Source of the DNA: a virus
Strand: one strand, 5' to 3'
IMG/VR virus record: IMGVR_UViG_3300027793_000075
Span: 21,567 to 85,566 of that record
Length of the DNA: 64,000 nucleotides
The notes under the pieces were generated by a model that had not been told where the DNA came from, did no database searches, and worked only from the letters and a program-made list of their open reading frames with translations. The translations under genes and the position numbers were made by a program. Of the stretch, positions 33,282 through 51,129 are shown piece by piece. The first letter of the stretch is position 1. Each line of letters starts with the position of its first letter.

Positions 33282-34046
33282 ATGATTTATTTGTCCGACC
33301 TACTAAATGAAACAAAACTACCATCAAGTGAGATTGATATGGACGTTTATGCGCGTAAGTATTTAAAAACAATAGATTATTTAAAAACTAAGAAAAAAAC
33401 ATTGTTACTCACAACTAGTAATAGATGGATACAACACAAAGATGATGTACCAAAAAGTACTCAATTGGCAATAAAAATAAAAGAAACTCTTGGAAGTGAT
33501 AAAATAATTCATCTTGATATTCCAAAATTAAATATTTTACCATGTGAAGGTAATGTTAGTAGCAACAAGCAATTTGGTGGATATCATTGTGGTACAAAAG
33601 ACTCGGCATTAAAAGATAAAGAAAAAAATCCTACGGGAAATCATCGTTGTTGGTGTAGTTATAACAACAAAAATGATGAATTATGGAAAGTTAGTAAAGA
33701 ACTTTTTGAATGTGATGCTGTTGTATTTTTTACAAGCATTAGATGGGGACAAGCCAATAGCTTTTACCAAAAATTAATTGAAAGATTAAATTGGCTTGAA
33801 AGCCGACATGCTACATTGGGAGAAAGCAATATTGTTAAAAATATTGACGCTGGATTTATTGCAGTTGGTCAAAATTGGAACGGTCCAAGTGTTGTGAAAA
33901 CTCAAAAACAAGTTTTTGAGTTTTTTGGATTCAATACTCCAAATGATTTGTTTTGGAACTGGCAATATACAAATGACCCGTGGGATGAATCAAAGCGTTC
34001 ATATAATACTGCACCGAGTGTGTTTAACGAAACATTTAAAATATAA
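33282..34046 (+). CDS. Flavodoxin-like (NADPH-dependent FMN reductase-type) protein with capsid-targeting-like start
   Basis: Start at 33282 (MIYLSDLLNETKLP) because the upstream ATG lies inside the promoter motif. Residues 40-250 follow the flavodoxin-like reductase pattern: a beta strand, then STQLAIKIKETLG (flavin-phosphate loop region), IIHLDIPKLNILPCEGNVSS near residues 75-94, four cysteines (88, 103, 123, 125), and ECDAVVFFTSIRWGQANSFYQKLIERL near residues 143-169, the classic helix-strand before the isoalloxazine site. It probably binds FMN; the cysteines could hold a metal or Fe-S cluster. The N-terminal peptide ends in L-N-E (residues 8-10), the prohead-protease cleavage pattern shared by several genes of this module. 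Packaging into the head is inferred. Confidence 0.78.
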   Translation: MIYLSDLLNETKLPSSEIDMDVYARKYLKTIDYLKTKKKTLLLTTSNRWIQHKDDVPKSTQLAIKIKETLGSDKIIHLDIPKLNILPCEGNVSSNKQFGGYHCGTKDSALKDKEKNPTGNHRCWCSYNNKNDELWKVSKELFECDAVVFFTSIRWGQANSFYQKLIERLNWLESRHATLGESNIVKNIDAGFIAVGQNWNGPSVVKTQKQVFEFFGFNTPNDLFWNWQYTNDPWDESKRSYNTAPSVFNETFKI

Positions 34047-34096: not shown

Positions 34097-34786
34097 ATGA
34101 AAAAAGCATCAGGAAAAAGTAATTTAAGCATTGTACGCGATTATCTTGACGGAACTAGACCATTCATTCAAGTAGGATATGATGAAAATGTGGCATTGCA
34201 AAGTCGAAAAGAAGGAGAAGAATGGGAAGATAGTAATGGTGTTAAATGGGTAAAGAAGAATGGATATAAGAAACGTGTAAGCAAAAAAGCACAGTATGTT
34301 TTTGAACAACGCTGCACGGTTTGTAACGCAGATATGAAATGGGGAAATTATCTTGATCAGAAAATATATCCGAAGACTCAACGATGCTATGAATGCAATA
34401 TTGAATTTGAAGCAATCTTAAAAAGTCGTGGAATTTACAATGACTATGAAAAATTTAAAGTAATTAACAATGAATTATCAATGATGAAAGATTTCAAATC
34501 AAAGATTGTTGATAGCATAAATTACCTTGAAAATTATACACCACAAACAAAAGATCCTCAATTTTTCAATGAAGATGGTAGCAATGAAATTTGGGTAGAT
34601 GACACAGATAGACGCGAACTTGTATTGAAAGATTTGAAAGAAGATCTTGATAAAGTCAATAGTGGAATCGCATTAGCAGAAAGCGAATTAGTTAAATTAA
34701 ATTATAACGTTGCGCTTGATCCAAATATTAATAAATTAACATTGAAAAAGATACAGGAAAAAGAGGAGAAATTGCAAAATGGCTGA
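34097..34786 (+). CDS. Zinc-ribbon coiled-coil protein upstream of the terminase
   Basis: The 229 residues contain CTVCNADMKWG near residue 74 and QRCYECNIEF near residue 97, two CxxC pairs forming a likely zinc ribbon. These are flanked by a basic N-terminal region (KKNGYKKRVSKKAQY) and a C-terminal coiled coil (residues 125-229). It overlaps the large terminase gene by 8 bases, the position of the small terminase in T4. Small terminases are coiled-coil DNA-binding proteins, so this is a candidate partner for DNA recognition, but zinc ribbons are not typical of that family. Function therefore uncertain. Confidence 0.7.
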   Translation: MKKASGKSNLSIVRDYLDGTRPFIQVGYDENVALQSRKEGEEWEDSNGVKWVKKNGYKKRVSKKAQYVFEQRCTVCNADMKWGNYLDQKIYPKTQRCYECNIEFEAILKSRGIYNDYEKFKVINNELSMMKDFKSKIVDSINYLENYTPQTKDPQFFNEDGSNEIWVDDTDRRELVLKDLKEDLDKVNSGIALAESELVKLNYNVALDPNINKLTLKKIQEKEEKLQNG

Positions 34787-36374
34787 AAAATCATTAAAAG
34801 AAATAATCAAAGAAGAGTATAAAAAATGTTTGGTTGATCCGATATATTTCATGAAGAAATATGTAAAGATTCAACATCCAATTCGTGGCACAATTAATTT
34901 TGATTTGTATCCTTTTCAAGAAGAAACATTAAGTGGATTGGTAGAAAATGATTTTAATATCATTTTAAAAAGTCGTCAAATGGGTATTAGCACATTGGTT
35001 GCCGCATATAGTTTGTGGCTGATGGTATTTCATACAGATAAAAATATTCGCTGTATTAGTATTACACAAGAAACAAGTAAAGAAATTGTTACCCGTGTTC
35101 GATTTGCCAATGATAATTTACCCGTTTGGTTAAAAGTGCCCGTTGTTGAAAACAATCGTCTTTCTCTAGTATTAAAAAATGGTAGTACAATCAAGGCAGA
35201 AAGTAGTGCAGGTACAGCAGGACGTTCGGCGGCATTGTCATTACTAATTATTGACGAAGCTGCATTTATTGATAATATCGAAGAAATTTGGTTGTCTGCT
35301 CAATACACATTGAGTACAGGTGGTCGTGCAATTGTTTTGAGTACACCAAACGGAGTTGGTAATTTCTTTCATAATACATGGGTTGACGCTGAAGCAAAGA
35401 AAAACAATTTTCATACAATTAAGTTGCCGTGGCATTTACATCCGGAGCGTGATCAAAAATGGCGCGACCAACAAACAGCTTTGAGTGGTGTAAAAGGATC
35501 TGCACAAGAATGTGATTGTGATTTTAGTACTACCGGTAACACTGTAATTGATATTCCTACATTAGATTTTTACAAAAATGAAAAGGTTAAAGATCCGATA
35601 GAAATGCGGGGTATTGATAAAAGTTATTGGATTTGGGAATATCCAGATTATAGTCGTAGTTATATTGTTTGTGCCGACGTTGCGCGTGGAGATGGTGCAG
35701 ATTATAGCGCATTTCATGTAATTGATATTGAAAGTTTCACGCAAGTTGCCGAATATCAAGGTCAAATTAATACTAAAGATTACGGTAATATGTTGGTTAG
35801 CGTTGCGACCGAATATAACAATGCATTATTAGTTGTTGAAAATGCAAATATCGGATGGGCAGTATTACAGCAAATTATTGACCGTGGCTATCCTAATACA
35901 TTTTATAGCAGTGCCGATCTTCAATATGTAGATATTGAACGTCAGATATCAAACAAGTTTAATGCTATGGAAAAGAAGATGGTGCCGGGATTTACGACAA
36001 CAATGAAGACTCGTCCGTTGATTGTATCTCGTTTGGAAATGTATTTTAGAGAACGTAGCATTGAAGTTCGTTCAGCAAGATTGGTAAATGAATTGAGAAC
36101 ATTTATTTGGAATGGTAACAAACCAGAAGCGTTGCCAAAATATCACGACGATCTGGTTATGTCATTTAGTATTGGTATGTGGGTGCGTGATACTGCATTA
36201 AAATTACGTCAACAGGGTGTTGATATTACTAAGAGTTTGATAAACAACATCAACAAGCTTGGAAATGCAGATCCAATTTATAAAACTGGTAATTTAACTG
36301 CTCAACAAGCATGGGAAATGAATATCGGAAAAACTGGTAATGATAAAAAAGAGTCTTTAAATTGGTTATTATAA
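34779..36374 (+). CDS. Terminase large subunit (gp17-like)
   Basis: Packages DNA into the prohead by ATP hydrolysis and cuts the concatemer. The ATPase domain has FQEETLSGL (adenine motif), a Walker A variant SRQMGIST at residues 65-72 and Walker B LSLLIIDEAAFI near residue 150, followed by the coupling motif LSTPNG near residue 185. The nuclease domain has VCADVARGDGADYSAF near residue 298 (first metal Asp), LVVENANIGWAVL near residue 350 and HDDLVMSFSIGMW near residue 460 (last Asp). The 531-residue length is a little shorter than T4 gp17 (610). Confidence 0.96.
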   Translation: MAEKSLKEIIKEEYKKCLVDPIYFMKKYVKIQHPIRGTINFDLYPFQEETLSGLVENDFNIILKSRQMGISTLVAAYSLWLMVFHTDKNIRCISITQETSKEIVTRVRFANDNLPVWLKVPVVENNRLSLVLKNGSTIKAESSAGTAGRSAALSLLIIDEAAFIDNIEEIWLSAQYTLSTGGRAIVLSTPNGVGNFFHNTWVDAEAKKNNFHTIKLPWHLHPERDQKWRDQQTALSGVKGSAQECDCDFSTTGNTVIDIPTLDFYKNEKVKDPIEMRGIDKSYWIWEYPDYSRSYIVCADVARGDGADYSAFHVIDIESFTQVAEYQGQINTKDYGNMLVSVATEYNNALLVVENANIGWAVLQQIIDRGYPNTFYSSADLQYVDIERQISNKFNAMEKKMVPGFTTTMKTRPLIVSRLEMYFRERSIEVRSARLVNELRTFIWNGNKPEALPKYHDDLVMSFSIGMWVRDTALKLRQQGVDITKSLINNINKLGNADPIYKTGNLTAQQAWEMNIGKTGNDKKESLNWLL

Positions 36375-36389
36375 GATATATATACAAAT

Positions 36390-38261
36390 ATGCCTACAGA
36401 TGAATTCAAAGAGTTGAAACAACGTTCGTTGTTTTCAAAATTAAGAAGATTATTTAGCACCGACGTAATTGTTCGTAATATTGGTGGTAAAAAACTGAAA
36501 GTAGTAGACACCGACGAATTAGCATACGCGACAGATCGTAATACCTTACGTGATCGTTTCAATCGTATTCGCACAAGTGCTTATAATCAATATAGCCGTG
36601 ATTTCACATTGAGTTATCAAGCGGCTCGTATTGAATTGTTTCGTGATTACGACACAATGGATATGGACCCTATTATCAGTAGTGCATTAGATATTTATGC
36701 AGATGAGTGTTTAACGCAAAACGAATTGGGCGATATGCTAACAATTCGTAGCACCAATGATAACGTCAAACAAATTCTTCATAATTTGTTTTATGACATT
36801 TTAAATATTGAATTTAATTTGTGGAGTTGGACTCGTAATTTGGTCAAATATGGTGATTTTTACTTGAAAATGTATGTAAGTCCAGAATTTGGCGTTTACA
36901 TGGTTGAACCAATTAGTAGCTACAACGTTACCCGTGTAGAAAATAGCGATTTAAATAATAAAAATTATATTAAATTTCAAGTAAATTTACCAGAAGGTGG
37001 AAAAATTGAAGAATTAGAAAATTATCAGGTTGCACATTTTCGTTTGTTGAGCGATAGCAATTTCTTACCTTACGGAAAAGGTATTATTGAAGGTGCGCGT
37101 CGTGTTTGGAAACAAGTTAGTTTGATGGAAGATGCAATGTTGATTCATCGTATTATGCGAGCACCTGAAAAGCGTATTTACAAGGTTGACATTGGTAATA
37201 TTCCACCAAACGAAGTTGATCAATATATGGAAAAATTGATCAATAAAACAAAAAAAGTTCCTTATATTGATGAAAAAACAGGTGACTACAATCTTCGTTT
37301 CAATTTGTGGAACATGGTTGAAGATATTTATTTGCCTGTTCGTGGCAGTGATAGTGGAACCAGCATTGAGCCATTGAGTGGCATGGAATTTACAGGTATT
37401 GATGATATTGAATATCTTCGCAACAAAATGATGGCTGCATTAAAGATTCCAAAGGCATTTTTGGGATATGAAGAAGATTTGAGCGGCAAAGCTACATTAG
37501 CAGCAGAAGACGTTCGTTTTGCACGTACCGTTCAACGTGTTCAAAAATTTATTGTTAGTGAATTAACAAAAATTGCAATTGTTCATTTGTATTCACAAGG
37601 TTATCGCGATGCAGAATTGGTTGATTTTAGTTTGGAATTAACAAATCCATCGACTATTTTTGAAAAAGAAAAGGTTAGTGTCTGGCAAGAAAAAACCAGT
37701 TTGGCAAAAGAAATGATTGATGCCAAAATTTATAGTCGTAAATGGATTCATACTACTGTCTTCAATACCAGTGAAGATGATATTGACACTATTAACAATG
37801 ATATTGTTGAAGATGCAAAACAAGCATATCGTTTGAAGAAGATTGAAGAAGAAGGTATTGATCCAGCAAAACCATATAATAAAATTAATGCTGGTGAAGA
37901 AGGAGACGCTGGCGCAACCCCTGAACTCGGCGCAGCAGAACCAGAAGCAGCACCAGCAGAAACACCAGCACCACCAACAGGTGCAGGAGAAGCTCCATTA
38001 AAAGAACGAGATCAAACAGGTCGTAAAAAAGCATCAAATTATCCATTTGGAGAAGATCCATTGGGTAGTAAAGAAAACACTCGCCGTTCAAATAAAACAA
38101 CAACAAAACATCCTATTTCACATGCATACAAAAATAATAGTCCTTTGAGTTTTGAAGGATTGGATATGCATCTTCGTGGAGATGGTACAAAATCAATTTT
38201 AAATGAAAATATAGATTCAAAAAAGAAATCATTTTTGGATGAATCTAATATAATTGACTAA
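36390..38261 (+). CDS. Portal protein (gp20-like)
   Basis: Twelve copies would form the head vertex ring through which DNA enters. Typical T4-like portal features: RDYDTMDMDPIISSALDIYADEC near residue 85, NLVKYGDFYLKMYV near residue 150, MLIHRIMRAPEKRIYKVDIG near residue 249, YLRNKMMAALKIPKAFLGYEED near residue 346, and the following AEDVRFARTVQRVQKF helix. The C-terminal 120 residues are a low-complexity Ala/Pro/Glu stretch and a charged tail. At 623 residues it is longer than T4 gp20 (524). Placed 16 bases after the terminase. Confidence 0.96.
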   Translation: MPTDEFKELKQRSLFSKLRRLFSTDVIVRNIGGKKLKVVDTDELAYATDRNTLRDRFNRIRTSAYNQYSRDFTLSYQAARIELFRDYDTMDMDPIISSALDIYADECLTQNELGDMLTIRSTNDNVKQILHNLFYDILNIEFNLWSWTRNLVKYGDFYLKMYVSPEFGVYMVEPISSYNVTRVENSDLNNKNYIKFQVNLPEGGKIEELENYQVAHFRLLSDSNFLPYGKGIIEGARRVWKQVSLMEDAMLIHRIMRAPEKRIYKVDIGNIPPNEVDQYMEKLINKTKKVPYIDEKTGDYNLRFNLWNMVEDIYLPVRGSDSGTSIEPLSGMEFTGIDDIEYLRNKMMAALKIPKAFLGYEEDLSGKATLAAEDVRFARTVQRVQKFIVSELTKIAIVHLYSQGYRDAELVDFSLELTNPSTIFEKEKVSVWQEKTSLAKEMIDAKIYSRKWIHTTVFNTSEDDIDTINNDIVEDAKQAYRLKKIEEEGIDPAKPYNKINAGEEGDAGATPELGAAEPEAAPAETPAPPTGAGEAPLKERDQTGRKKASNYPFGEDPLGSKENTRRSNKTTTKHPISHAYKNNSPLSFEGLDMHLRGDGTKSILNENIDSKKKSFLDESNIID

Positions 38262-39720: not shown

Positions 39721-40200
39721 ATGTCGATTAGTTTAAAAAGACTAATAGAATTGGATAGTGAGCCGCAAGTCAAACAAAATGCGGCTTATACTCCTATTGT
39801 TGCTCAACAACCAACTCCACAAGGTCAGGAGTTTAATGTTGGATTAGATTTTACTAATTTTGAACGAACGATAGCAGCATTTACTGAAAATGCAAAAAAT
39901 GCATTTCAACAAAAACTTATGAGTTTGGTTGGAAATAAAAAAGTATTTTTGCGTGGTAGTAAAGGCTATGGTCAGCCAATTAAAGATTATACTGTCAATG
40001 TAAAAAGCGTTAGCATTGATTTTTATTATGAACGTTATGTTGTTGTTTTCAAAGATGAAAATGACAAAGAATACTTTTTAGAGCCGGGATACAAGATTAA
40101 AATCTTGGGTCAGGCACAAATTGTTCCAAAAACACCAAAGAAAAAAAAGAAGGAACAACCTCCGGTTGTGCCAGTTCAACCAAATATTAATCCTAGATAA
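39721..40200 (+). CDS. Head-module protein with capsid-targeting-like N-terminus, 159 aa
   Basis: Begins MSISLKRLIELDSE, where L-I-E at residues 8-10 matches the prohead-protease site and the LKRLIE part resembles the common start of other genes in this module. After a disordered segment, residues 40-135 form a compact domain with beta strands (KKVFLRGSKGYGQPIKDYTVNV, then YYERYVVVFKDEND) and the tail is Lys- and Pro-rich. Directly upstream of the prohead protease. Possibly a packaged internal protein; unknown function. Confidence 0.7.
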   Translation: MSISLKRLIELDSEPQVKQNAAYTPIVAQQPTPQGQEFNVGLDFTNFERTIAAFTENAKNAFQQKLMSLVGNKKVFLRGSKGYGQPIKDYTVNVKSVSIDFYYERYVVVFKDENDKEYFLEPGYKIKILGQAQIVPKTPKKKKKEQPPVVPVQPNINPR

Positions 40201-40201
40201 T

Positions 40202-40819
40202 ATGAATAAAGAATTACTTGTTGACTGCATTTCGTTTGCAGTAAGCCGAGATGTCATAAATGAAATGACAAATAGTGGCGGACCTTTTGTAGTAAAAGGT
40301 GTATTGCAACGTGCTAATGCAAAAAATCAAAATGGTAGAATTTATCCAAAAGCAATTTTGGAACGTGAAGCAGTAAAATATACTGAAAACTTCATCAAAC
40401 AACGTCGTGCATTAGGTGAATTAGATCATCCTGAAACTAGTGTTGTTAATTTGCAAAATGTTAGTCATAACGTATTGGAAGTTCACTGGGAAGGTGATGA
40501 TTTGGTCGGTAGTGTTGAAATTTTAACAACGCCAAGCGGCAACATTTTGCGTGAGTTATTTAAAAGCTCAATCAATGTTGGCATTAGTAGTCGTGGCGTA
40601 GGTAGTGTAAAACGAAAAATGGCAGAAAGTGCAGATGAAGTTCAAGAAGATTTTGAATTAATTGCATTTGATTTCGTTAGCAACCCAAGCACACAAGGAG
40701 CATTTTTACATCCGTCTGGACAAATTCAAGAAGGTGTAAATACAATTAAAAATCCAGTCACAAACAAATGGGATAATGTAAATAATATTATTCGAGAAAT
40801 CTTAGGAGAAATTAAATAA
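40202..40819 (+). CDS. Prohead core protease (gp21-like)
   Basis: Serine protease that cleaves scaffold, capsid and targeting peptides during head maturation. The start at 40202 (MNKELLVDCISFAV) is 1 base after the previous stop; an ATG 81 bases upstream in this frame lies inside that gene. GRIYPKAILEREA near residue 46, LGELDHPE with the catalytic His76, and NVGISSRG with the catalytic serine (129 or 130) are the hallmarks. The length of 205 residues agrees with T4 gp21 (212). It is the expected processing enzyme for the I/L-x-E peptides described in the findings. Confidence 0.93.
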   Translation: MNKELLVDCISFAVSRDVINEMTNSGGPFVVKGVLQRANAKNQNGRIYPKAILEREAVKYTENFIKQRRALGELDHPETSVVNLQNVSHNVLEVHWEGDDLVGSVEILTTPSGNILRELFKSSINVGISSRGVGSVKRKMAESADEVQEDFELIAFDFVSNPSTQGAFLHPSGQIQEGVNTIKNPVTNKWDNVNNIIREILGEIK

Positions 40820-41522: not shown

Positions 41523-42008
41523 ATGATCACGTTAAAAAAAATTATTGAAGGAGTTGAACAAGAATCTTCTGTAGATACTAATGAATTGAGTGGTATGATG
41601 GGACAGTCACCTACTACATGGGATACGCCAAAAGCATATGCTCCTGCCGGTGCGCCAGTTCGAACAAATGAAGCATTACCTTCAAAGAAATTAACCGCTG
41701 AAGAAAAGCGTAAATTGCTTGGTATGATTGGTCAATTTAACGAATATCGCCGTGCTATGAAGATGGCGGATGAATTGAAACACGTTGCTGAAAACATTGT
41801 TTACATTGCAGAAATGACCGAAAAATACGGTTTGAATGAAACAAGTGAGTGGTTTGAAGGAGTAACATTGGAACGTGATATGAAAGAAATTAAACGTTAT
41901 GCAAGTGAATTGCATAAGATTGCTAATAAAGTTCATCCACAGGTTCAACAAGCCGAAGCAATATACGAAGAAATTGGACTAAAGTTAGAAAGATACTTTA
42001 ATCTATAA
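41523..42008 (+). CDS. Head-module protein with capsid-targeting-like N-terminus, 161 aa
   Basis: Begins MITLKKIIEGVEQE; I-I-E at residues 7-9 fits the prohead-protease consensus and the MITLKKII part fits the shared start pattern. The rest has a disordered segment (residues 20-60, TTWDTPKAYAPAGAP) and a long helical domain (RRAMKMADELKHVAENIVYIAEM to the end), probably a coiled coil or helix bundle. Followed by a bidirectional terminator. Possibly packaged in the head; function unknown. Confidence 0.72.
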   Translation: MITLKKIIEGVEQESSVDTNELSGMMGQSPTTWDTPKAYAPAGAPVRTNEALPSKKLTAEEKRKLLGMIGQFNEYRRAMKMADELKHVAENIVYIAEMTEKYGLNETSEWFEGVTLERDMKEIKRYASELHKIANKVHPQVQQAEAIYEEIGLKLERYFNL

Positions 42009-42428: not shown

Positions 42429-42917
42429 TTATTTATTCATTAATAGTGCGTCTGTAAAAAAATTATAAATGTTGCTCAAGAAATTTGGAATATTTGCATT
42501 TTTATCAAATGAACTTCCTGAGCGACTAAACACTGCGCCGGGTTTATCTATATCTTCTCGTTTAGTAAATGCAACATACCACATGGCATATTTATATTCA
42601 TTAGAATTTCGTGGATTTGCAATTTTTCTAATGGCAAAATGAAAATTTGTTGGCGATTGATTAACTTCAAATTGAATAGTATTATTTGTAAAATCAACTG
42701 AACTTATATTACTATATACATGTTTAATTGCTTCTTTTATTTTTTCAAGCTCTTGAGGACCAATTGTATAAGGGCGATTATATCCTTTTTGTAATACAGC
42801 AGTCAAATTGGTATCATCAGCTTCTTTTGTTTCAACATAAGAAGATTCAATCAACATATTTTCCAACAATACTTTTTTGATATATTGTTTCAATGATTGT
42901 TTTTGTTTTTCGTTCAT
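42429..42917 (-). CDS. Hypothetical protein with possible targeting peptide, 162 aa
   Basis: The N-terminus is an amphipathic helix (SLKQYIKKVLLENMLIESS) that contains two I/L-x-E sites, L-L-E at residues 17-19 and L-I-E at residues 22-24, so it may carry a longer version of the capsid-targeting peptide. The body is alpha/beta with no known motif (YTIGPQELEKIKEAIKHVYS; AMWYVAFTKREDIDKPGAVF). A late-type motif lies 4 bases before its start codon on the minus strand, consistent with late expression. Confidence 0.68.
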   Translation of the reverse strand: MNEKQKQSLKQYIKKVLLENMLIESSYVETKEADDTNLTAVLQKGYNRPYTIGPQELEKIKEAIKHVYSNISSVDFTNNTIQFEVNQSPTNFHFAIRKIANPRNSNEYKYAMWYVAFTKREDIDKPGAVFSRSGSSFDKNANIPNFLSNIYNFFTDALLMNK

Positions 42918-43066: not shown

Positions 43067-44248
43067 ATGTCAAAATTATTACAAGAAGCACTCGCTGACG
43101 CAAAAGCCGTTAAGCGTATTGCTATTGAAAATGCTAAAGTAGCATTAGAAGAAACATTCCAACGCGAAGTCACCGGAATGTTCCAAGAAAAAATCAAAGA
43201 AGAATTGGCCAACGAAGAAACCTACGGTGTAGGTGATCAAAGTGGCGGCCTTCAAGGATCCAGTGATATTGGCGGAACTGTTGGTGGCAGCAAAAAGCCA
43301 TCTGCAAAAGCCCACAAAACATCAACCAAAGTTTCTAAGTTGGAAACTGGTGTAAAATTGGATGAAGAAGCCGAAGATTCGATGCATGCTGAAGTTGGTT
43401 CACATGACAATCAAATGGAAGCTTCAGAAGAAGCTGTTCATGATGAAACAATTACCAATGAAGAATTGGAAGAAATCTTGAGTAGCTTAGAAGAAGAATT
43501 GGATGAAGAAGGTGAACCGTCACCAGCACAACCTCCTGTTGATCCAATGGCACAAACACCTGCTCCTGCTCCTGCGCCAATGGCACCTGCTCCAGTTGAT
43601 CCAAATGCTCCAGTAGCTGCTCAACCTCCAGTTGATCCAAATGCTCCTGTTGCTCCAGTTGCTCCTGCTCCAATGGCACAAGCACAACCTCCAGTTGCTG
43701 AAGAAGAAGAAAGCATGGAAGAAATCAGTCTCGACGAACTTTTGAGTGAAATCGGTGCTGAAGAAAGCTTGGAAGAAGCTAAGGAAGAAGACGACGACGA
43801 AAAAGAAGAAAAAGAAGAAGGTAAAGAAGAAGATGAAGATTTGAAAGAACAAAATACTTCACTTCGTACCCAATTGAGCGAACACATTAAAGTCATTGAA
43901 TATTTGCGTGAACAAATCAATGAAATTAATTTATTGAATGCAAAATTATTGTATACCAACAAGTTGTTTAAGCAATTTGGATTGAGTAACACACAAAAAT
44001 TGAGCATTGTTGAAAAATTCGACTTGGCAAGCACAGTACGTGAAGTCAAGTATGCATACACAATTTTAGCCGAATCATTAAGTTCCGGTGCATCAACAGT
44101 CAAGAAGACTAATACTGTTGCAAAATCTATCACCGAAGGTTTGGCAAGCAAAGCAGTTGCATCCACAAAACCATCAAAAGATGTAATTGTTGAAAACACT
44201 AACGAGATGGCTTTGAAATTCCAAAGACTCGCCGGAATCAAGAAGTAA
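43067..44248 (+). CDS. Prohead scaffolding core protein (gp22-like)
   Basis: Very acidic, helical protein of 393 residues between protease and capsid genes, as T4 gp22. An N-terminal helix region, an acidic middle, a repeated Pro/Ala stretch (about residues 150-205, with several V-D-P-N-A-P units) and a charged region rich in Lys, Asp and Glu. The conserved C-terminal coiled-coil follows (SLRTQLSEHIKVIEYLREQINE, LLYTNKLFKQFGLSNTQK), ending FQRLAGIKK, a closing phrase I associate with gp22-like proteins. It shapes the prohead and is degraded by the protease. The Pro/Ala insertion is unusual for gp22. Good Shine-Dalgarno sequence. Confidence 0.88.
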   Translation: MSKLLQEALADAKAVKRIAIENAKVALEETFQREVTGMFQEKIKEELANEETYGVGDQSGGLQGSSDIGGTVGGSKKPSAKAHKTSTKVSKLETGVKLDEEAEDSMHAEVGSHDNQMEASEEAVHDETITNEELEEILSSLEEELDEEGEPSPAQPPVDPMAQTPAPAPAPMAPAPVDPNAPVAAQPPVDPNAPVAPVAPAPMAQAQPPVAEEEESMEEISLDELLSEIGAEESLEEAKEEDDDEKEEKEEGKEEDEDLKEQNTSLRTQLSEHIKVIEYLREQINEINLLNAKLLYTNKLFKQFGLSNTQKLSIVEKFDLASTVREVKYAYTILAESLSSGASTVKKTNTVAKSITEGLASKAVASTKPSKDVIVENTNEMALKFQRLAGIKK

Positions 44249-44299: not shown

Positions 44300-46063
44300 A
44301 TGAGTGATATTAAGTCATTATTGACAAACAACATGAACCCACAAGCACGTTTGATGCAGGAAACTCGTCAATTACAAAGTAAGTGGGATAAAACTGGTCT
44401 TCTTGAAGGATTGGGCGGCGTAGAAAAAGCCAATATGTCCATCTTGCTTGAAAACCAAGCAAAGCAATTGCTTGATGAAGCAACTGCCACAGGTACATCA
44501 GCAAACAGTGAACAATGGGCAGGCGTAGCTCTTCCATTGGTTCGCCGTGTATTTGCTGAAATTAGCGCAAAAGAATTCGTTTCAGTACAACCAATGAATC
44601 TTCCAAGTGGTTTGATCTTTTATTTGGATTTCAAATATGGTTCAACTAATGGCGGATTTACTGCTGACTCAGCTAACAATTACAGTTCATTGTTCGGTGG
44701 AACAGGCAAGAAGCTTGGATCAACTGACAGTGCAACCGGTGGTTTGTATGGTGTAGGTCGTTATGGTTATTCTATTAATGATATTACAGCAAGTATTTCT
44801 GCTGCAACTGGTAGCAGCTTGCCAGCAAGTGGAGTATATTTCACCACTGCGTCATATAGTGATGTCGATTTTGATGCATCCTATAGTTCTAGCGTTAACG
44901 GTACAAGCAACAACATCTACAAGTTGACAATTAATTTGGGAGATAATAGTAGTACTTCAGGTGCAAACCCATTTGCATCAACAATTAATAATGCCGACTT
45001 AAATGCAGTACGTAGCTTCGTATTCACTGGAACCAGTACAACTACTGCTCCATTGAACGCATTCCAAGCTGTATATAACACTGGTAGTTTGGCAAGTCCA
45101 CAATACTCAGTAACATTGTTCTTCAGTGCATCTTCAGCATTGTTGGCAGCCGGTAAAGTAACTGGCTCTGTATTGTTTAGCAAGCAACCAACTGATACAA
45201 CCCGTGGTGACTTCGAAGATAAGGCTCCATTCAGTGGTACTGGTGCAAATACTGGTATTAACGCTGGTACCGATATTGGTATTCCAGAAATTAACTTGGA
45301 ATTGAAGAGCGAACCTATCGTTGCCAAGACACGTAAATTGAAGGCCGTTTGGACCCCTGAATTGGCTCACGATTTGAATGCTTACCACAGCATCGACGCA
45401 GAAGCAGAATTGACTGCTTTGTTGAGTGAATACGTCTCAATGGAAATTGATTTGGAAATCCTTGATATGTTAATTACTGCTGCTCCGGGTGTAACAACTC
45501 AAGCATGGAGTGCTAAGATCGGTAATGAATTGTCAGTTAACTTGGATAGTTTCGGTAATATGAATAATATTACTTTGAACACCGACGCAACTAACAAAAC
45601 TGCATATGTTAAGAGCACATGGTTCCAAACATTGGGTAACAAGATTCAACGTGTATCTAACAAGATTCACCAATTGACTCTTCGTGGTGGTGCTAACTTC
45701 TTGGTCGTCAGTCCAGATGTTGCAACTATCTTGGAAAGTATTCCGGGCTATGTAGTAAACACCGATGGTGATAGTGCTAAGTTCGCAATGGGCGTAAGCC
45801 GTGTTGGTTCTTTCGCATCACGTTTCCAAGTTTACAAGAATCCATATATGGTTGAAAACGTAATCTTGGTTGGTTTCCGTGGAAATAACTTCCTCGAAAC
45901 TGGTGCAGTTTATGCTCCATATATCCCACTCGTACAAACTCCAATGGTATACGATCCAATTAACTTCACACCACGTCGTGGAGTATTGACTCGTTATGCT
46001 AAGAAAGTAATTCGTCCAGAATTCTACGGTAAAGTATTCATTGGTGATCTTGACCAAGTATAA
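44300..46063 (+). CDS. Major capsid protein precursor (gp23-like)
   Basis: Principal head shell protein, 587 residues (T4: 521). The N-terminal part (residues 1-60) is a propeptide; a prohead-protease site L-D-E is at residues 58-60, followed by ATATGTSANSEQWAG, the same place as the T4 cleavage after Glu65. ALPLVRRVFAEISAKEFVSV near residue 75, the hallmark FVSVQPMNLPSGLIFYLD, and VRGNNFLETGAVYAPY-like C-terminal segments are diagnostic. A Ser/Thr/Gly-rich insertion between about residues 130 and 330 is larger than in T4. Preceded by Shine-Dalgarno AAGGA and followed by a terminator, as for a highly expressed gene. Confidence 0.96.
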   Translation: MSDIKSLLTNNMNPQARLMQETRQLQSKWDKTGLLEGLGGVEKANMSILLENQAKQLLDEATATGTSANSEQWAGVALPLVRRVFAEISAKEFVSVQPMNLPSGLIFYLDFKYGSTNGGFTADSANNYSSLFGGTGKKLGSTDSATGGLYGVGRYGYSINDITASISAATGSSLPASGVYFTTASYSDVDFDASYSSSVNGTSNNIYKLTINLGDNSSTSGANPFASTINNADLNAVRSFVFTGTSTTTAPLNAFQAVYNTGSLASPQYSVTLFFSASSALLAAGKVTGSVLFSKQPTDTTRGDFEDKAPFSGTGANTGINAGTDIGIPEINLELKSEPIVAKTRKLKAVWTPELAHDLNAYHSIDAEAELTALLSEYVSMEIDLEILDMLITAAPGVTTQAWSAKIGNELSVNLDSFGNMNNITLNTDATNKTAYVKSTWFQTLGNKIQRVSNKIHQLTLRGGANFLVVSPDVATILESIPGYVVNTDGDSAKFAMGVSRVGSFASRFQVYKNPYMVENVILVGFRGNNFLETGAVYAPYIPLVQTPMVYDPINFTPRRGVLTRYAKKVIRPEFYGKVFIGDLDQV

Positions 46064-46146: not shown

Positions 46147-46941
46147 ATGTATTCAGAAAAAATATCACTAAAGTCTTTGTTATTGGAATATTTTACGGAA
46201 CCCGTTTCTGTTTTAAAAAAATACATTACTAAAACAGAGGCAGAAAGAAAAATAGAACTTGGATTAAAAAATGATTGCATAGAATTTTTAGCAAGACGAT
46301 ATCCAAGTATATATGAAAAATATAGAAAAAACAATTACGGTGAATCGTCTGAAATGTTAATGAAAGAGCATTTAGATGTATTTAATGAATGGTGTAATTT
46401 TTTGTATGAAAAATTAAACAGTTATGATTATCATGAATACTTTGACACGGGCTATCCGACATGGAATTATGTAGATTATAGATCCATTGTAAAAAATCAA
46501 TGGTTGATTCATTTTAGTGATACAGCACAAAATATTTATTATGATCAAAGATTTAATAGTGGAGTAGATGATTATACAAGACTAGGATTAACTAAGCATT
46601 TATCCGATGGTATGAAAGATATGGAAGGATATAATTTTGCTTATTTATTAAGTGATTATTTGAGATACGGAAAGGAACGTAATCGATTCAAATATGGAAA
46701 AGAAGCTGTTTTGTTCAAAGCAAGTGGAATACAAGTGTGGCATTTTGGTGATGCCGAACCACAAGTAATTTTTTGGGGACCGAGTGCATTTGATATTGTC
46801 TATATTAGAGAAGACAGTGACACAGGCGAATATTATGTATATAGTAAAAACAAGACAAGTCCATTCAGAGGAGAATTTGATGATTGTGTTGACTGGGTAA
46901 TAAATAATTTTAATCAATATAAACGCATATTATTACCTTGA
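46147..46941 (+). CDS. Putative packaged protein, possibly ADP-ribosyltransferase-like, 264 aa
   Basis: Start MYSEKISLKSLLLEYF; an alternative ATG lies two codons upstream. L-L-E at residues 12-14 fits the prohead-protease consensus and ISLKSLLLE fits the shared targeting pattern. Residues 20-115 are helical. The C-terminal domain has LIHFSD (His122), DDYTRLGLT near residue 145, FKYGKEAVLFKASG near residue 198 and WHFGDAEPQVIFWGPSAFDIVYI. The order of an H-F-S-D strand and later beta strands is reminiscent of DarT/KptA-type ADP-ribosyltransferase folds, but the catalytic set is not clear, so that idea is weak. First gene of a tightly packed operon between capsid and neck genes. Confidence 0.65.
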   Translation: MYSEKISLKSLLLEYFTEPVSVLKKYITKTEAERKIELGLKNDCIEFLARRYPSIYEKYRKNNYGESSEMLMKEHLDVFNEWCNFLYEKLNSYDYHEYFDTGYPTWNYVDYRSIVKNQWLIHFSDTAQNIYYDQRFNSGVDDYTRLGLTKHLSDGMKDMEGYNFAYLLSDYLRYGKERNRFKYGKEAVLFKASGIQVWHFGDAEPQVIFWGPSAFDIVYIREDSDTGEYYVYSKNKTSPFRGEFDDCVDWVINNFNQYKRILLP

Positions 46942-46946
46942 TGTAT

Positions 46947-46955
46947 TCTATTTAT
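46947..46955 (+). promoter_or_regulatory. Late-type TATTTAT motif
   Basis: TCTATTTAT, ending 6 bases before the ATG at 46962; supports that start over an upstream ATG at 46938. Confidence 0.45.
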
Positions 46956-46961
46956 TATCAT

Positions 46962-47573
46962 ATGAAATTAACCGACATTGTTGAAAATATTGTTCATCCA
47001 GCAGAACCAATGAATCTAATTAAAGAGGTTGCTGTTAGCCAAAATTTAAAATATCATTTGGATAGACACTTAACGCTTGAAGAATGTGTATTTCGCAATT
47101 ATAGCGAAGCTTATTTTAACTTAATAAATGAAATTCGTGCATTATACAACGATGATGCAATTGAATTAAATGAATATGACGCAGATATTGTCGAAAGCGA
47201 TTTGGGAGAAACTGCTGAATATGAAGGACGCACTGTATATTTAGATGCTCCTATTGAAGAAGATGTTGATGAACAATTGATGTTGGAAGCAAAACATCGT
47301 GGCAGAACAGTTAAATTAAATAGACCATTTCGAACTCCCGGTGGACCAAAAAAATTTGCTGTTTATGTAAAAAGCAAAAAGGGAAAAATCAAAAAAGTAA
47401 CATTTGGTGATCCTAAAATGCGTGTTCGTGCCAGTAGCAAGGCTCGCCGCAAGAGCTTTTCTGCCCGACATAAATGTAGTCAAAAGAAAGATCGTACAAC
47501 AGCAGGTTATTGGAGTTGCAGAGCACATCGTATTCGCAGTTTGGGTACAAAAAGCAAGGGCAAATATTGGTAA
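46962..47573 (+). CDS. Packaged basic protein with conserved C-terminal domain, 203 aa
   Basis: Start MKLTDIVENIVHPAEP; I-V-E at residues 6-8 is a first prohead-protease site. The middle is acidic (residues 60-115). A second, textbook site lies at L-M-L-E followed by A-K-H-R-G near residue 118. After it the protein is strongly basic: GRTVKLNRPFRTPGGPKKF, then KKVTFGDPKMRVRASSKARRKSF and RHKCSQKKDRTTAGYWSCRAHR. I recognise the FGDPxM...RR-x-F-x-ARH-x-C...YWSC block as a domain widespread in T4-like marine phages, function unknown (a DUF5872-like family). Likely cleaved to release a small basic, perhaps DNA-binding, head protein. Confidence 0.78.
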   Translation: MKLTDIVENIVHPAEPMNLIKEVAVSQNLKYHLDRHLTLEECVFRNYSEAYFNLINEIRALYNDDAIELNEYDADIVESDLGETAEYEGRTVYLDAPIEEDVDEQLMLEAKHRGRTVKLNRPFRTPGGPKKFAVYVKSKKGKIKKVTFGDPKMRVRASSKARRKSFSARHKCSQKKDRTTAGYWSCRAHRIRSLGTKSKGKYW

Positions 47574-47574
47574 T

Positions 47575-47600
47575 ATATGATTAAGCTTAAAGATTTGATT
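47575..47600 (+). repeat. 26-base exact repeat, copy 1 (targeting-peptide cassette)
   Basis: Identical to 47928-47953. Covers 2 bases before the ATG and the first eight codons (M-I-K-L-K-D-L-I) of the gene at 47577. Identity ends abruptly on both sides. Confidence 0.9.
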
Positions 47601-47933
47601 GACGAAGGTTGGGGAGGCATGCTTCAAGCACAGTTCTATTGGCTTGATAAAAATGGAAATGCGAAAAAAGTTTCAAGTCACGGAAGTTATGCTAATCTTT
47701 TATCAAAAATAGATTGGGACGATGATCAATCATATCAATATATGTTTGATCGTGGATGGGCAAGAATTTCAATAGAAGATAATTATATATTTATAAATAC
47801 ATCATTGACAAATCCAGTTCACGTCGATTTGACCAAATCTCAAAAAGAATGGCTTAAAACAATCCGAGATGAAATATATCCAGCGCAACATTTACAAATT
47901 GTAAACATATACCGAAGACCAATAGAAATATGA
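47577..47933 (+). CDS. Putative packaged protein, 118 aa
   Basis: Begins MIKLKDLIDEGWGG; I-D-E at residues 8-10 matches the prohead-protease consensus. The mature part is a small alpha/beta domain (QAQFYWLDKNGNAKKV, MFDRGWARISIEDNYIFIN, then a helix and IVNIYRRP). The GWARI-type strand is something I recall from other phage proteins but with no known role. Its first eight codons are identical at DNA level to those of the next gene. The stop overlaps the next start (ATGA). Confidence 0.7.
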   Translation: MIKLKDLIDEGWGGMLQAQFYWLDKNGNAKKVSSHGSYANLLSKIDWDDDQSYQYMFDRGWARISIEDNYIFINTSLTNPVHVDLTKSQKEWLKTIRDEIYPAQHLQIVNIYRRPIEI

Positions 47934-47953
47934 TTAAGCTTAAAGATTTGATT
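47928..47953 (+). repeat. 26-base exact repeat, copy 2 (targeting-peptide cassette)
   Basis: Second copy of the sequence at 47575-47600, again placed exactly at the start of a gene (47930). Confidence 0.9.
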
Positions 47954-48271
47954 TTAGAACATTCAAATGATATTGTTTATCACTTGACTAAAAAATCTAA
48001 TTTATCCAGTATTAAGAAATACGGACTAAAACCAAATTTACCGGTTGATATGCCCACTGAAGATGAAGGTGTGTATGTATTTAAAACAAAAGAAAATGCA
48101 GAAGATGCATTGATGAATTGGTATGGAGACAGATTTGATGAAGATGAAGAATTTGTATTGTTGACCATCAAGACAGATGGATTGCAATTGTTTTCAACAA
48201 TGGTAGATTGGGAATATATTTCATACACAAATATACCAGCATCCAATATTATTAAAATAGAAAATATATGA
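47930..48271 (+). CDS. Putative packaged ADP-ribosyltransferase-like protein, 113 aa
   Basis: Begins MIKLKDLILEHSND, with I-L-E at residues 8-10 as prohead-protease site. The rest resembles the compact ADP-ribosyltransferase/RNA 2'-phosphotransferase (KptA- or DarT-like) fold: IVYHLTKKSNLSSIKKYGLKP at residues 15-35 with His18 and the GLKP turn, then GVYVFKTKENAEDAL near residues 47-60 and strands up to the C-terminus. Such proteins bind NAD+ and modify protein or nucleic acid, or remove RNA 2'-phosphates. The catalytic acid cannot be assigned with certainty. Resembles, in concept, the packaged T4 Alt protein. Confidence 0.65.
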   Translation: MIKLKDLILEHSNDIVYHLTKKSNLSSIKKYGLKPNLPVDMPTEDEGVYVFKTKENAEDALMNWYGDRFDEDEEFVLLTIKTDGLQLFSTMVDWEYISYTNIPASNIIKIENI

Positions 48272-48873
48272 TTTTATTAAAAACATTACTATTAGAAAAT
48301 AATTGGCCGAATGTAATTTTGAATGATAAACATCTTTGGTATCATGGCAGAAGCATTGATAGTGACGTTTTTTCGTATGATTATGTCGGCGGCGAAAATG
48401 CATATGATCAAGAGGGGCCGGGATTTTATTTTACAAATAATTTCGAGGATGCAAAAAAATATACAAATTCAAATGGTATTATATTAAAATGTAAAATAAA
48501 TTATCAAAAAATACTTATAAAAAGCCCATCATCAAATACAAAAGTTAATAAAAAAATAATTGTTGATTTAATTAATAGTAGTCCAGACAAAGATTATACA
48601 CTAGAAAATTTTGATGAAAATCCAAAAATGGCAATGATTAAAGCAATAAATGCATATTTGAAATATGATTATGCGCATGACGCGTATCAAATACTTGCCC
48701 GTGATTTTTACAAATACAATCCAAAAGAATATTTACAAATATTGTCAAAATATTATGATGCTCAATTAACTGATAAAAACATAATGGATGGTAAAAAAGT
48801 ATATCATTTGATTGTTTACAATCCAACATTAATTACAGTTATTGATAAAATAAAATATGAATCTTCCATTTAA
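48268..48873 (+). CDS. Putative packaged ADP-ribosyltransferase (PolyVal-ART-like), 201 aa
   Basis: Begins MILLKTLLLENNWPN, with L-L-E at residues 8-10. The catalytic-fold signature is LWYHGRSI (His26) and, after AYDQEGPGFYFTNNFEDAKKY at residues 45-65, a beta strand IILKCKINY. The H...G-x-G-x-Y-F-T-x-x-x-x-x-A-x-x-Y arrangement is that of ADP-ribosyltransferase domains found in phage polyvalent proteins. It is predicted to transfer ADP-ribose from NAD+ to a host target. The C-terminal helical 100 residues may give specificity. The best ART candidate of the window, and the closest functional parallel to T4 Alt. Confidence 0.75.
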   Translation: MILLKTLLLENNWPNVILNDKHLWYHGRSIDSDVFSYDYVGGENAYDQEGPGFYFTNNFEDAKKYTNSNGIILKCKINYQKILIKSPSSNTKVNKKIIVDLINSSPDKDYTLENFDENPKMAMIKAINAYLKYDYAHDAYQILARDFYKYNPKEYLQILSKYYDAQLTDKNIMDGKKVYHLIVYNPTLITVIDKIKYESSI

Positions 48874-49138: not shown

Positions 49139-50347
49139 ATGGCAAATGCAAATATCGATCAAGATCGTGTAAGATGGCCGGGTAGCGGTAGTGCTGTGAA
49201 CACTGGTAGTGTTCCGTATGGATTTTATCTCAATGAAAGCGCAACTACCGGCAGTGTTGGTTATTTTGAATATGATTGTCAAGCTGCTGCCGGTTGGGCA
49301 GCAAAACGTTTGGGTTATCCAATTGTAGATATTGAAATGATTGATGTAAATTTCTATGCATGTTTTGAAGAAGCTGTAAGTGAATATGGTGCTCAAGTAA
49401 ATCAATTCAACATTCGTAATAATATGTTGAATTTACAAGGTATGCCCGTGGCAAATAATCCAAATGTTACAGGTCTAAATGTAAAAGGAAGTGCATTGCC
49501 ATTTATTGTTGAATTATCAAAACAATATGGTAGTGAAGTTGGCGTCGGAGGATATGTGGAAGCAAAAAAATATGGCGTTGCAGTTACAAGTAGTGTTCAA
49601 ACATATGATTTACAAGCATTAATTGGAACCGCAGTTGAAAGCGGCAGCCGTGTTGAAATTCGCAGAGTATTTCATGGCCCACCACCAGCATTTGCACGTA
49701 TTTACGATCCATTCAGCATGACTGGTATGAGTTATAGTAACGTATTGAATGAAATGGGATTCGCTGGCTATAGTCCTGCTACACAATTTTTAATGACGCC
49801 GATCTTTGAAGATTTGCTTCGCGGTCAAGCAATTGAATTCAATGATATGGTACGAAAAAGCGGATACAGCTTTGAAATTATTAATAACAAATTAAAATTA
49901 TTTCCTATTCCAACATATGATCATACTGTTTATGTAGAATACGTTGTAGAAAAAGATAAATATAGTACGGCATCGCTGTTTAGTAGTGGAAGTAATTATG
50001 ATATTGTAAGTGATTATAGTAATGCACCTTATCAAAACGTTGTATATAAGAGCATCAACGCCGTTGGTAAACAATGGATACGAAAATATTTCTTGGCATT
50101 ATGTAAAGAAACTCTTGGTCGAATTTTGCAAAAATATACAACAGTTCCGATTCCGGGTGGCGAAGTTACTCTGGACGGTGCTGAATTGCGTAGTGAAGCG
50201 ACATCTGAAAAAGAAGTGTTAATGACACAATTAAGAGAAAATCTTGAAGCCAGTGGACGTGCTGCACAAATGGATGCCAAAGCAAATGAAGCTGATAAAA
50301 TTCAAGAAACTCTTCGTAAAACCCCACTGTTAATTTATATTGGATAA
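49139..50347 (+). CDS. Neck protein (gp13-like)
   Basis: Head-completion protein that binds the portal vertex and joins head to tail. Diagnostic segments are RLGYPIVDIEMIDVNFYACFEEAVSEYGAQVNQ near residues 59-92 (a conserved helix in cyanophage gp13 proteins), the RRVFHGPPPAFARIYDPF stretch near residue 178, and KLFPIPTYDHTVYVEYV near residue 255. Length of 402 residues is greater than T4 gp13 (309). The C-terminus contains a helical region (EKEVLMTQLRENLEASGRAAQMDAKANEADK). Located with gp14- and gp15-like genes, in the T4 order. Confidence 0.87.
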   Translation: MANANIDQDRVRWPGSGSAVNTGSVPYGFYLNESATTGSVGYFEYDCQAAAGWAAKRLGYPIVDIEMIDVNFYACFEEAVSEYGAQVNQFNIRNNMLNLQGMPVANNPNVTGLNVKGSALPFIVELSKQYGSEVGVGGYVEAKKYGVAVTSSVQTYDLQALIGTAVESGSRVEIRRVFHGPPPAFARIYDPFSMTGMSYSNVLNEMGFAGYSPATQFLMTPIFEDLLRGQAIEFNDMVRKSGYSFEIINNKLKLFPIPTYDHTVYVEYVVEKDKYSTASLFSSGSNYDIVSDYSNAPYQNVVYKSINAVGKQWIRKYFLALCKETLGRILQKYTTVPIPGGEVTLDGAELRSEATSEKEVLMTQLRENLEASGRAAQMDAKANEADKIQETLRKTPLLIYIG

Positions 50348-50658: not shown

Positions 50659-51129
50659 ATGAGTTTATTTGGACGCTATTTTAGTGAACGCGATTTAAGA
50701 TTGATTAATTCTGTTAATGCAGAATTGACCCGCGATATTATTCAAACTTTAGTTGTTTGTTTTAAAATCGCTGGTAATGTTACCAAAACAAACATGTATG
50801 GTGAAAGCAGTCCTAGCGAAGGCAAATCTTTTTATGATGGTATTGAGCTGACCGCATTAATTGAACGAAGTGATCCAACAACAGACGATGAAGGATTTGG
50901 TCCAGATCGGGATCAAAGCGTTGTGTTCAAATTGAGAGAAAATACTTGTGCCGATGCAAATTATTTTCCTGAAGTTGGCGATTTAATTTTATTTAATAAT
51001 CGGTATCATGAAATTAATAATGTTGTTCAAGAACAATTTTTGGGTGGCCAGAGTGATAAGAGTCATAGTTTTATTTGCAATACTCATTATAGTCGTTTAA
51101 GTAAACTTAACATCATTGAAAGACAATAA
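50659..51129 (+). CDS. Neck/head-completion protein (gp14-like)
   Basis: Similar in place and in its central motif to T4 gp14: EVGDLILFNNRYHEINNVVQEQ near residue 107 parallels the EGDLIYFPM...FEINWV segment of T4. At 156 residues it is shorter than T4 gp14 (256), lacking its C-terminal extension. The N-terminal helix (RDLRLINSVNAELTRDIIQT) and the DGIELTALIERSD strand are additional features. Links the gp13 ring and the tail. Confidence rests on synteny plus this motif. Confidence 0.75.
   Translation: MSLFGRYFSERDLRLINSVNAELTRDIIQTLVVCFKIAGNVTKTNMYGESSPSEGKSFYDGIELTALIERSDPTTDDEGFGPDRDQSVVFKLRENTCADANYFPEVGDLILFNNRYHEINNVVQEQFLGGQSDKSHSFICNTHYSRLSKLNIIERQ

Follow-up and report, generated by a model that had tools for sequence, protein, structure and literature searches.

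Nine genes in the 64,000-nucleotide stretch analyzed here (hereafter the window; positions 21567-85566 of the 85,566-base virus record IMGVR_UViG_3300027793_000075) encode proteins that begin with a related short peptide, or tag, closing on I/L-x-E. Our results favor the hypothesis that this peptide represents a capsid targeting sequence like that of bacteriophage T4, carried by a modular set of internal proteins, several of them enzyme-like, that would be trimmed by a gp21-like prohead protease. On the sequence evidence we assign this reading a probability of roughly 0.84. The nine peptides had been listed in a first-pass annotation, and all are present exactly as given there; the proteins had also been described as unrelated beyond the peptide, and with their first 16 residues trimmed off they do form nine separate families. 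The same annotation had claimed a gp21-like protease in the window, which a profile match bears out (Table 1), and had read the peptides as capsid targeting sequences cut by that protease. Agreement with T4 positions, the form of the gp23 cleavage site and an association with gp21 all support that reading.

In T4 internal protein IPIII, residues 4 and 7 serve targeting and residues 8 and 10 serve processing, according to the mutagenesis described in a review (PMC9026906). In the consensus MIKLKDLLxE the equivalents of these positions are L4, L7, L8 and E10. Two rules were used to score gene starts. The T4-derived rule, taken from T4 N-termini only, requires an M followed, inside the first 20 residues, by hydrophobic-x-x-hydrophobic-hydrophobic-x-E. 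The strict rule covers 10 residues, with hydrophobic ones at positions 4, 7 and 8 and a Glu at position 10. In the best 80 of 222 loci containing relatives of gp21 (the gp21 loci), 76 N-termini matched the T4-derived rule, with the Glu at residue 10 in 40 of them. Counted back from this Glu (P1, entropy 0), the 76 N-termini are constrained at P7 (1.26 bits), P4 (1.54 bits) and P3 (1.47 bits), whereas P2 is free (3.10 bits) and constraint is lost after P1 (3.70 bits at P1'). The rule itself imposes the hydrophobic residues at P7, P4 and P3 and the Glu at P1, but not the placement of the Glu at residue 10, the freedom of P2 or the loss of constraint at P1'.

The major capsid protein has a cleavage site of matching form. 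T4 gp23 carries a 65-residue propeptide with the site FLTE65/A, the slash marking the cut (PMC9026906). The form hydrophobic-hydrophobic-x-E/A is retained in 14 of 14 aligned major capsid proteins, the window's LLDE/A among them, in an alignment restricted to proteins that share at most 90% identity with the window's and do not closely resemble another in the set. From this conserved site we infer that the protease of this clade would cut after hydrophobic-x-E. In the alignment of gp21 itself, the GEL-x-HP and SSRG stretches are retained in 6 of 6 proteins.

Within the window, the T4-derived rule matches 7 of the 20 genes called between 33 and 49 kb, compared with 1 of the other 58 (Fisher p=2e-4). 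The pattern is near absent at non-head genes; the first-pass annotation had named an equal frequency at early, non-structural genes in advance as evidence against its reading. The terminase (MAEKSLKEIIKE) is one of the seven matches and is taken as a probable coincidence; the motif match in a gene at 50659 is probably a coincidence as well. A rule shaped on the window itself separates the two regions further (9 of 20 vs 0 of 58, including the terminase and missing the 42917 gene; genes are named by their start coordinates), and is post hoc for that very reason. The strict rule matches 5 of the 78 gene starts in the window, against 0.12 expected from internal 10-mers. Four of the nine tagged genes (33282, 47577, 47930 and 48268) fit it exactly, and the rest are shifted or one residue shorter.

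The gp21 loci gave a similar picture. The T4-derived rule matched 76 of 470 distinct N-termini; the background rate was 1.6% in internal windows (71 of 4521) and 2.0% in N-termini after shuffling. Under the strict rule we counted 72 of 1259 starts in gp21 loci and 5 of 1204 in control loci (p about 3e-16), both counts being redundant in that near-identical genes of related contigs are included; the control set consisted of 120 viral loci fetched by an ATP-binding motif. A loose motif anywhere in the first 20 residues was dropped as uninformative, since it matches 37 of 238 T4 gene starts. Some caution also applies to the T4-derived rule, into which Alt entered as MELITELFDE; with the 7-residue propeptide that the review assigns to it (PMC9026906), Alt is a poor model for the rule. 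Across positions 1-150 kb of T4, the strict rule selects 4 of 238 called starts, namely IPII, IPIII, gp24 and gene 61.1. The product of gene 61.1 (L086 18966-19130, minus strand) starts MKTFKEFIKE and is absent from the internal proteins in the portion of the review's composition table that was consulted (PMC9026906); judged by this start, it may be an unrecognised T4 internal protein.

Outside the window the tag is widespread. Searched as degenerate DNA, MIKLKDLLxE matched at least 120 stretches in the viral collection, compared with 2 for a scramble of the same composition, both of the latter in 8-residue reading frames, and a slightly looser pattern read backwards gave 0 matches in 43 tag-bearing records. 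The codons of the tag vary while its residues are constant, which places the constraint on the peptide. The prokaryote genome collection held 13 stretches, five of them resembling gene starts; one of the five agrees with a viral tag protein over its first 50 residues, and another belongs to a Flavobacteriaceae bin, on a stretch that also contains a relative of the window's 46141 gene. Whether the tag goes with gp21 in related metagenomic phages, a question raised by the first-pass annotation, was addressed with the first 80 listed tag records and the first 80 listed controls, of which those of at least 16 kb were kept (43 and 31). Matches to gp21 (phrog_207) occurred in 20 of the 43 tag-bearing records and in 0 of the 31 controls. 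In addition, gp23 was found in 18 of the 43, three of them additional to the gp21-positive records, and the window's terminase, searched in the 20 remaining tag records, added one more positive. The result for phrog_3014 (0 of 20 records) is uninformative, since this family matched nowhere at all.

The proteins behind the tag are diverse. After removal of the first 16 residues, the 111 complete consensus-bearing proteins among the matches listed fall into at least 54 families, and 278 proteins (the consensus-bearing set, the gp21-locus proteins that fit the T4-derived rule, and the nine from the window) fall into 81, a few of which are likely false matches (e.g. terminase and scaffold). Proteins shorter than 60 residues, cut proteins and one consensus site deep inside a frame were left out of the latter clustering. 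For the Pfam scan we used 67 representatives, that is, the 81 minus 15 that were short, likely false, commonest core or the window's own, plus a protein labelled L091. The matches comprised Nudix, phage lysozyme, FMN reductase-like and helix-turn-helix domains, several domains of unknown function and, above cut-off, a zeta-toxin-like kinase (L091), with weaker ADP-ribosyltransferase-like and metallopeptidase-like matches; most representatives had no Pfam match. One representative (L171) matched the 2'-5' RNA ligase/Acb1 (anti-CBASS) family below cut-off (20.2 of 27 bits), and its possible identity as Acb1 is only a lead.

Among the window's own proteins, two resemble ADP-ribosyltransferases. 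The model of the 47930 protein, built from a two-sequence alignment, adopts an ADP-ribosyltransferase-type fold (predicted local distance difference test, pLDDT, 70 for the best of five models and 44-58 for the others), and its best structural matches are KptA/Tpt1 tRNA 2'-phosphotransferases (lowest E=1.9e-4). The 48268 protein matches phrog_25279, a family without a named function (E=2.6e-22), and Pfam ART-PolyVal below cut-off (E=1e-4). A profile search of solved structures gave nothing for this protein and its structure model is useless (mean pLDDT 36), so that its ADP-ribosyltransferase label is tied to the sub-threshold Pfam match. Its jumbo-phage relatives among the matches listed align from residue 24 onwards, that is, behind the tag. 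The FMN_red match of the 33282 protein (E=0.006) likewise falls below the Pfam cut-off; in the family of this protein M, I, L4, L8 and E10 of the tag are retained in 4 of 4 homologues and the linker behind it diverges. The C-terminal domain of the 46962 protein is phrog_7595 (E=7.5e-16). The same domain makes up most of a small protein of Pelagibacter phage HTVC008M (L356:14908-15309), and in Methylophilales phage Melnitz it is fused to a protein starting MKKFSEIIEA (L357:13519-15471), which we take to be nucleotidyltransferase-like. A Cys-rich stretch directly behind the tag was seen in four loci (L075:11765-12112, L076:6147-6551, L062:7808-8143 and L081:9193-9537).

Five of the nine genes (46147, 46962, 47577, 47930 and 48268) would form an exchangeable cargo cassette between gp23 and the neck genes. 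Their relatives occur in 2-9 of the 80 gp21 loci, whereas terminase gp17, portal gp20 and gp21 occur in 70-80, gp23 in 48 and the neck gene in 32; the loci differ in span, which makes gp23 and the neck gene the fairer yardstick. The gap between gp23 and neck contains no gene in L075, one candidate in L012 and differing tagged sets in L007 and L021. In the last two, which are close relatives, the cassette is fronted by a gene starting MNSGIYKITNKNNGKFYIGSS (L007:16502-17233 and L021:15672-16403). The N-terminus of its product is presumably GIY-YIG endonuclease-like, and the gene could drive cassette exchange. By comparison, the 41523 and 39721 genes, with relatives in more of the loci (Table 1), retain a place between the portal and scaffold genes, and their products are more plausibly prohead core proteins; the 41523 family is the largest of the tagged families, with 49 tagged members. 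The first-pass annotation had proposed that at least eight proteins are co-packaged and possibly injected. The tagged set on which this proposal was based stands, but to judge from position 39721 and 41523 are probably core components rather than injected cargo.

The tagged genes lie around a T4-like head module of terminase, portal, protease, scaffold-like, capsid and neck genes (Table 1). The closest named relatives of the terminase, at ~54% identity, are from Microcystis phage Mel-JY01 and immuto-type Flavobacterium phages. The scaffold-like 43067 gene had no PHROG match at E<=0.001. Tags differ somewhat in length: in 39721, 41523 and 46962 the part before x-E is shorter by one hydrophobic residue, with the Glu at 10, 9 and 8, and the leaders of the 42917 and 46147 genes are longer (19 and 14 residues). 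For 46147 and 46962 an in-frame ATG lies slightly upstream. The sequence TATTTAT lies 20 bases or less upstream of 4 of the 8 plus-strand tagged starts (33282, 41523, 46147 and 46962) and within 25 bases of 7 of the 78 called starts in the whole window; it is a possible late promoter or initiation element.

Table 1. Head-module and tagged genes of the window, with two cyanophage genes discussed in the text; relatives are counted in the 80 gp21 loci.
Feature	Position	Strand	Remarks
Tagged protein	33282-34046	+	tag 33282-33311 MIYLSDLLNE; weak FMN reductase/flavodoxin-like domain
Terminase large subunit	34779-36374		
Portal	36390-38261		
Tagged protein directly before gp21	39721-40200	+	tag 39721-39750 MSISLKRLIE; relatives in 16/80
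gp21-like prohead protease	40202-40819	+	phrog_207 E=5.7e-49
Tagged protein between gp21 and gp22	41523-42008	+	tag 41523-41549 MITLKKIIE; relatives in 59/80
Tagged protein, longer leader	42429-42917	-	tag 42861-42917 MNEKQKQSLKQYIKKVLLE; relatives in 7/80
gp22-like scaffold	43067-44248	+	assigned by position in gp21-gp23 interval; relatives in 42/80
gp23-like major capsid protein	44300-46063	+	phrog_138 E=3.1e-69
Predicted gp23 cleavage site, LLDE codons	44468-44479	+	before Ala61; aligned with T4 FLTE65/A
Tagged cargo candidate	46147-46941	+	tag 46147-46188 MYSEKISLKSLLLE; alternative start 46141; relatives in 3/80
Tagged cargo candidate	46962-47573	+	tag 46962-46985 MKLTDIVE; alternative start 46941; relatives in 9/80
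Tagged cargo candidate	47577-47933	+	tag 47577-47606 MIKLKDLIDE; relatives in 2/80
Tagged cargo candidate, ADP-ribosyltransferase-type predicted fold	47930-48271	+	tag 47930-47959 MIKLKDLILE; relatives in 3/80
Tagged cargo candidate, ART-PolyVal-like	48268-48873	+	tag 48268-48297 MILLKTLLLE; relatives in 5/80
Neck protein	49139-50347		
S-SZBM1_191 and _192	L365 22311-22628 and 22628-23125	-	

Published virion proteomes of T4-like cyanophages give mixed support, favorable in S-CREM2 and none in S-SZBM1. The S-CREM2 virion list holds 52 proteins of 219 genes (PMC10665884). Applied to the 219 annotated starts, the strict rule selects six proteins, five of which are on the list (5 of 52 virion proteins vs 1 of 167 others, p=0.003), and all five belong to the 28 non-structural or unknown virion proteins, with 0 among the 24 structural ones. 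Three are enzymes, an S-adenosylmethionine (SAM) hydrolase (MKDFDSFLEE), an APH/ChoK-like kinase (MKRFDAFLTE) and a cytidylyltransferase (MKNFSSFLTE), and two are unknowns (ORF13 and ORF136); the sixth, ORF175, is tagged and unlisted. A cytidylyltransferase has also been detected in virions of S-SM1 (PMC3037559). The virion-listed Cas9-like protein ORF12 of S-CREM2 (L359:7704-10313, minus strand) has a tag-like FASFMAE further in, near residue 24.

Several results weigh against our reading. Lysine is favored at P6 (1.96 bits) and P8 (2.38 bits) of the 76 N-termini, which has no counterpart in the T4 work consulted (PMC9026906), and the strict rule misses T4 IPI, which has a longer propeptide, as well as Alt. 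With the T4-derived rule, the S-CREM2 comparison gives 6 of 52 vs 8 of 167 (p=0.08). At the annotated starts of S-SZBM1 (PMC9146016) none of the 30 virion proteins fits the strict rule, compared with 4 of the 188 others. The corresponding counts for the T4-derived rule are 1 of 30 and 9 of 188; the single virion match is a cytidylyltransferase with a form one residue shorter (MRFRQFIIE). Near the S-SZBM1 terminase, S-SZBM1_191 (MKSFKSFLSE) and _192 (MKTFKQYITE) carry the tag and are not in the virion list, and CBB_455, a jumbo-phage relative of 48268 with a vague tag, is absent from the CBB virion table (PMC5259590). Finally, 19 of the 43 tag records had no gp21, gp23 or gp17 match, although records may be fragments. 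Four of these 19 were examined, and all contain genes resembling those of immuto, T4 or the window (for 65 of 273, 16 of 75, 19 of 75 and 12 of 56 called proteins). The largest of the four ends in the neck genes that, in the window, are next to the head genes.

The T4-type reading implies a course of events whose steps in this phage, namely binding to the core, cleavage, packaging and injection, are what we infer. During assembly the hydrophobic face of the peptide (residues 4 and 7 of the 10-residue form) would bind the prohead core and the attached protein would come along. The gp21-like protease would then cut after I/L-x-E (residues 8-10), leaving a mature protein that would stay in the DNA-filled head and could enter the host with the DNA. 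Of the approximately nine tagged proteins of the window, two (39721 and 41523) would probably be core components and about seven would be exchangeable cargo, including two that are ADP-ribosyltransferase-like.

Other explanations deserve consideration. All tagged proteins might be structural parts of the prohead core or scaffold, with a peptide that assembles the core and no delivery to the host. The position kept by 41523 and 39721 would suit this idea, as would the cleavage of the T4 core proteins gp22 and gp67 by gp21 (PMC9026906), but the enzyme-like tagged families (Nudix, zeta-toxin-like kinase and lysozyme, with metallopeptidase and ADP-ribosyltransferase as weaker cases) are hard to reconcile with it. 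So are cargo genes that are rare and differ between relatives, and the tagged SAM hydrolase, kinase and cytidylyltransferase in the S-CREM2 virion list, where the authors consider contamination possible (PMC10665884). We therefore regard a purely structural role as improbable. It seems a little less probable still that the peptide sends proteins elsewhere (membrane, replication compartment, outer capsid or tail) and ends in I/L-x-E only incidentally. Sorting of other kinds could also make use of a short amphipathic N-terminus, some records (G014 and G042) have tags at a distance from head genes, and no strict-rule protein of S-SZBM1 appears in the virion list. However, constraint ends after P1 and P2 is free, as a cleavage site predicts, gp23 is cut at a site of matching form, the positions agree with those of the T4 capsid targeting sequence (PMC9026906), and the T4 IP and alt genes likewise lie away from the head cluster.

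Least credible of all is a coincidence, in which a common helical N-terminus would recur with no shared function. Loose motif versions are indeed frequent at T4 gene starts, yet the excess of strict-rule starts in gp21 loci over controls and of the consensus over its scramble makes this very hard to accept.

A T4-type capsid targeting sequence, the reading we prefer, has close precedents. T4 IPI-III likewise combine an approximately ten-residue N-terminal peptide and unrelated mature parts with a gp21-type protease in the genome, and IPII and IPIII have, like the window's proteins, hydrophobic residues at 4 and 7, I/L at 8 and Glu at 10. The window differs in having MIKLKDLLxE instead of MKTYQEFIAE, about nine tagged genes and enzyme-like cargo, known here from sequence. 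In phiKZ-type giant phages the cleavage motif is S/A-x-E, unlike the window's, and we know of no 10-residue tag shared among their proteins. Inner-body/ejection head proteins of these phages are cut after Glu by a distant relative of gp21 (PMC9026906). T4 Alt, a packaged and injected ADP-ribosyltransferase, also has a short N-terminal propeptide removed by gp21 (7 residues; PMC9026906), but the two window proteins, in which a general ADP-ribosyltransferase resemblance was seen, are much smaller. The T4-like cyanophages S-CREM2 and S-SZBM1 have non-structural enzymes in their virions, several with a T4-type tag; two cyanophage papers allow that virion enzymes are purification leftovers (PMC10665884, PMC9602691), and the available text of the S-CREM2 and S-SZBM1 papers does not name a targeting peptide. 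In the open-licence literature, only one T4 review linked capsid targeting with cyanophages, and nothing was found that combined capsid targeting sequence, prohead protease and metagenomics.

In conclusion, the T4 capsid targeting principle is known, and the review already suggests that the sequence could let T4-like phages load various proteins (PMC9026906); what is new lies in the repertoire, in both its size and its kind, in the consensus and in the exchangeable locus. One near-fixed tag is found on at least 54 families, 81 with the looser set, and provides a consensus for a large uncultured clade, and the rule picks out three previously unexplained virion enzymes of S-CREM2. The tag offers a sequence-based prediction of the proteins such phages carry into the host, so that the old question of non-DNA injection by phages becomes partly answerable from sequence. 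We lean slightly towards the broader view that the tag is a general loading ticket throughout this T4-like clade, serving a swappable arsenal that would act before phage gene expression. Such an arsenal would cover dozens of unrelated proteins, among them ADP-ribosyltransferase-like proteins, zeta-like kinases, Nudix proteins, 2H-phosphoesterase-like proteins and peptidases, and if this view is true, the tag would be analogous, on the phage side, to a secretion signal that serves a set of interchangeable effectors.

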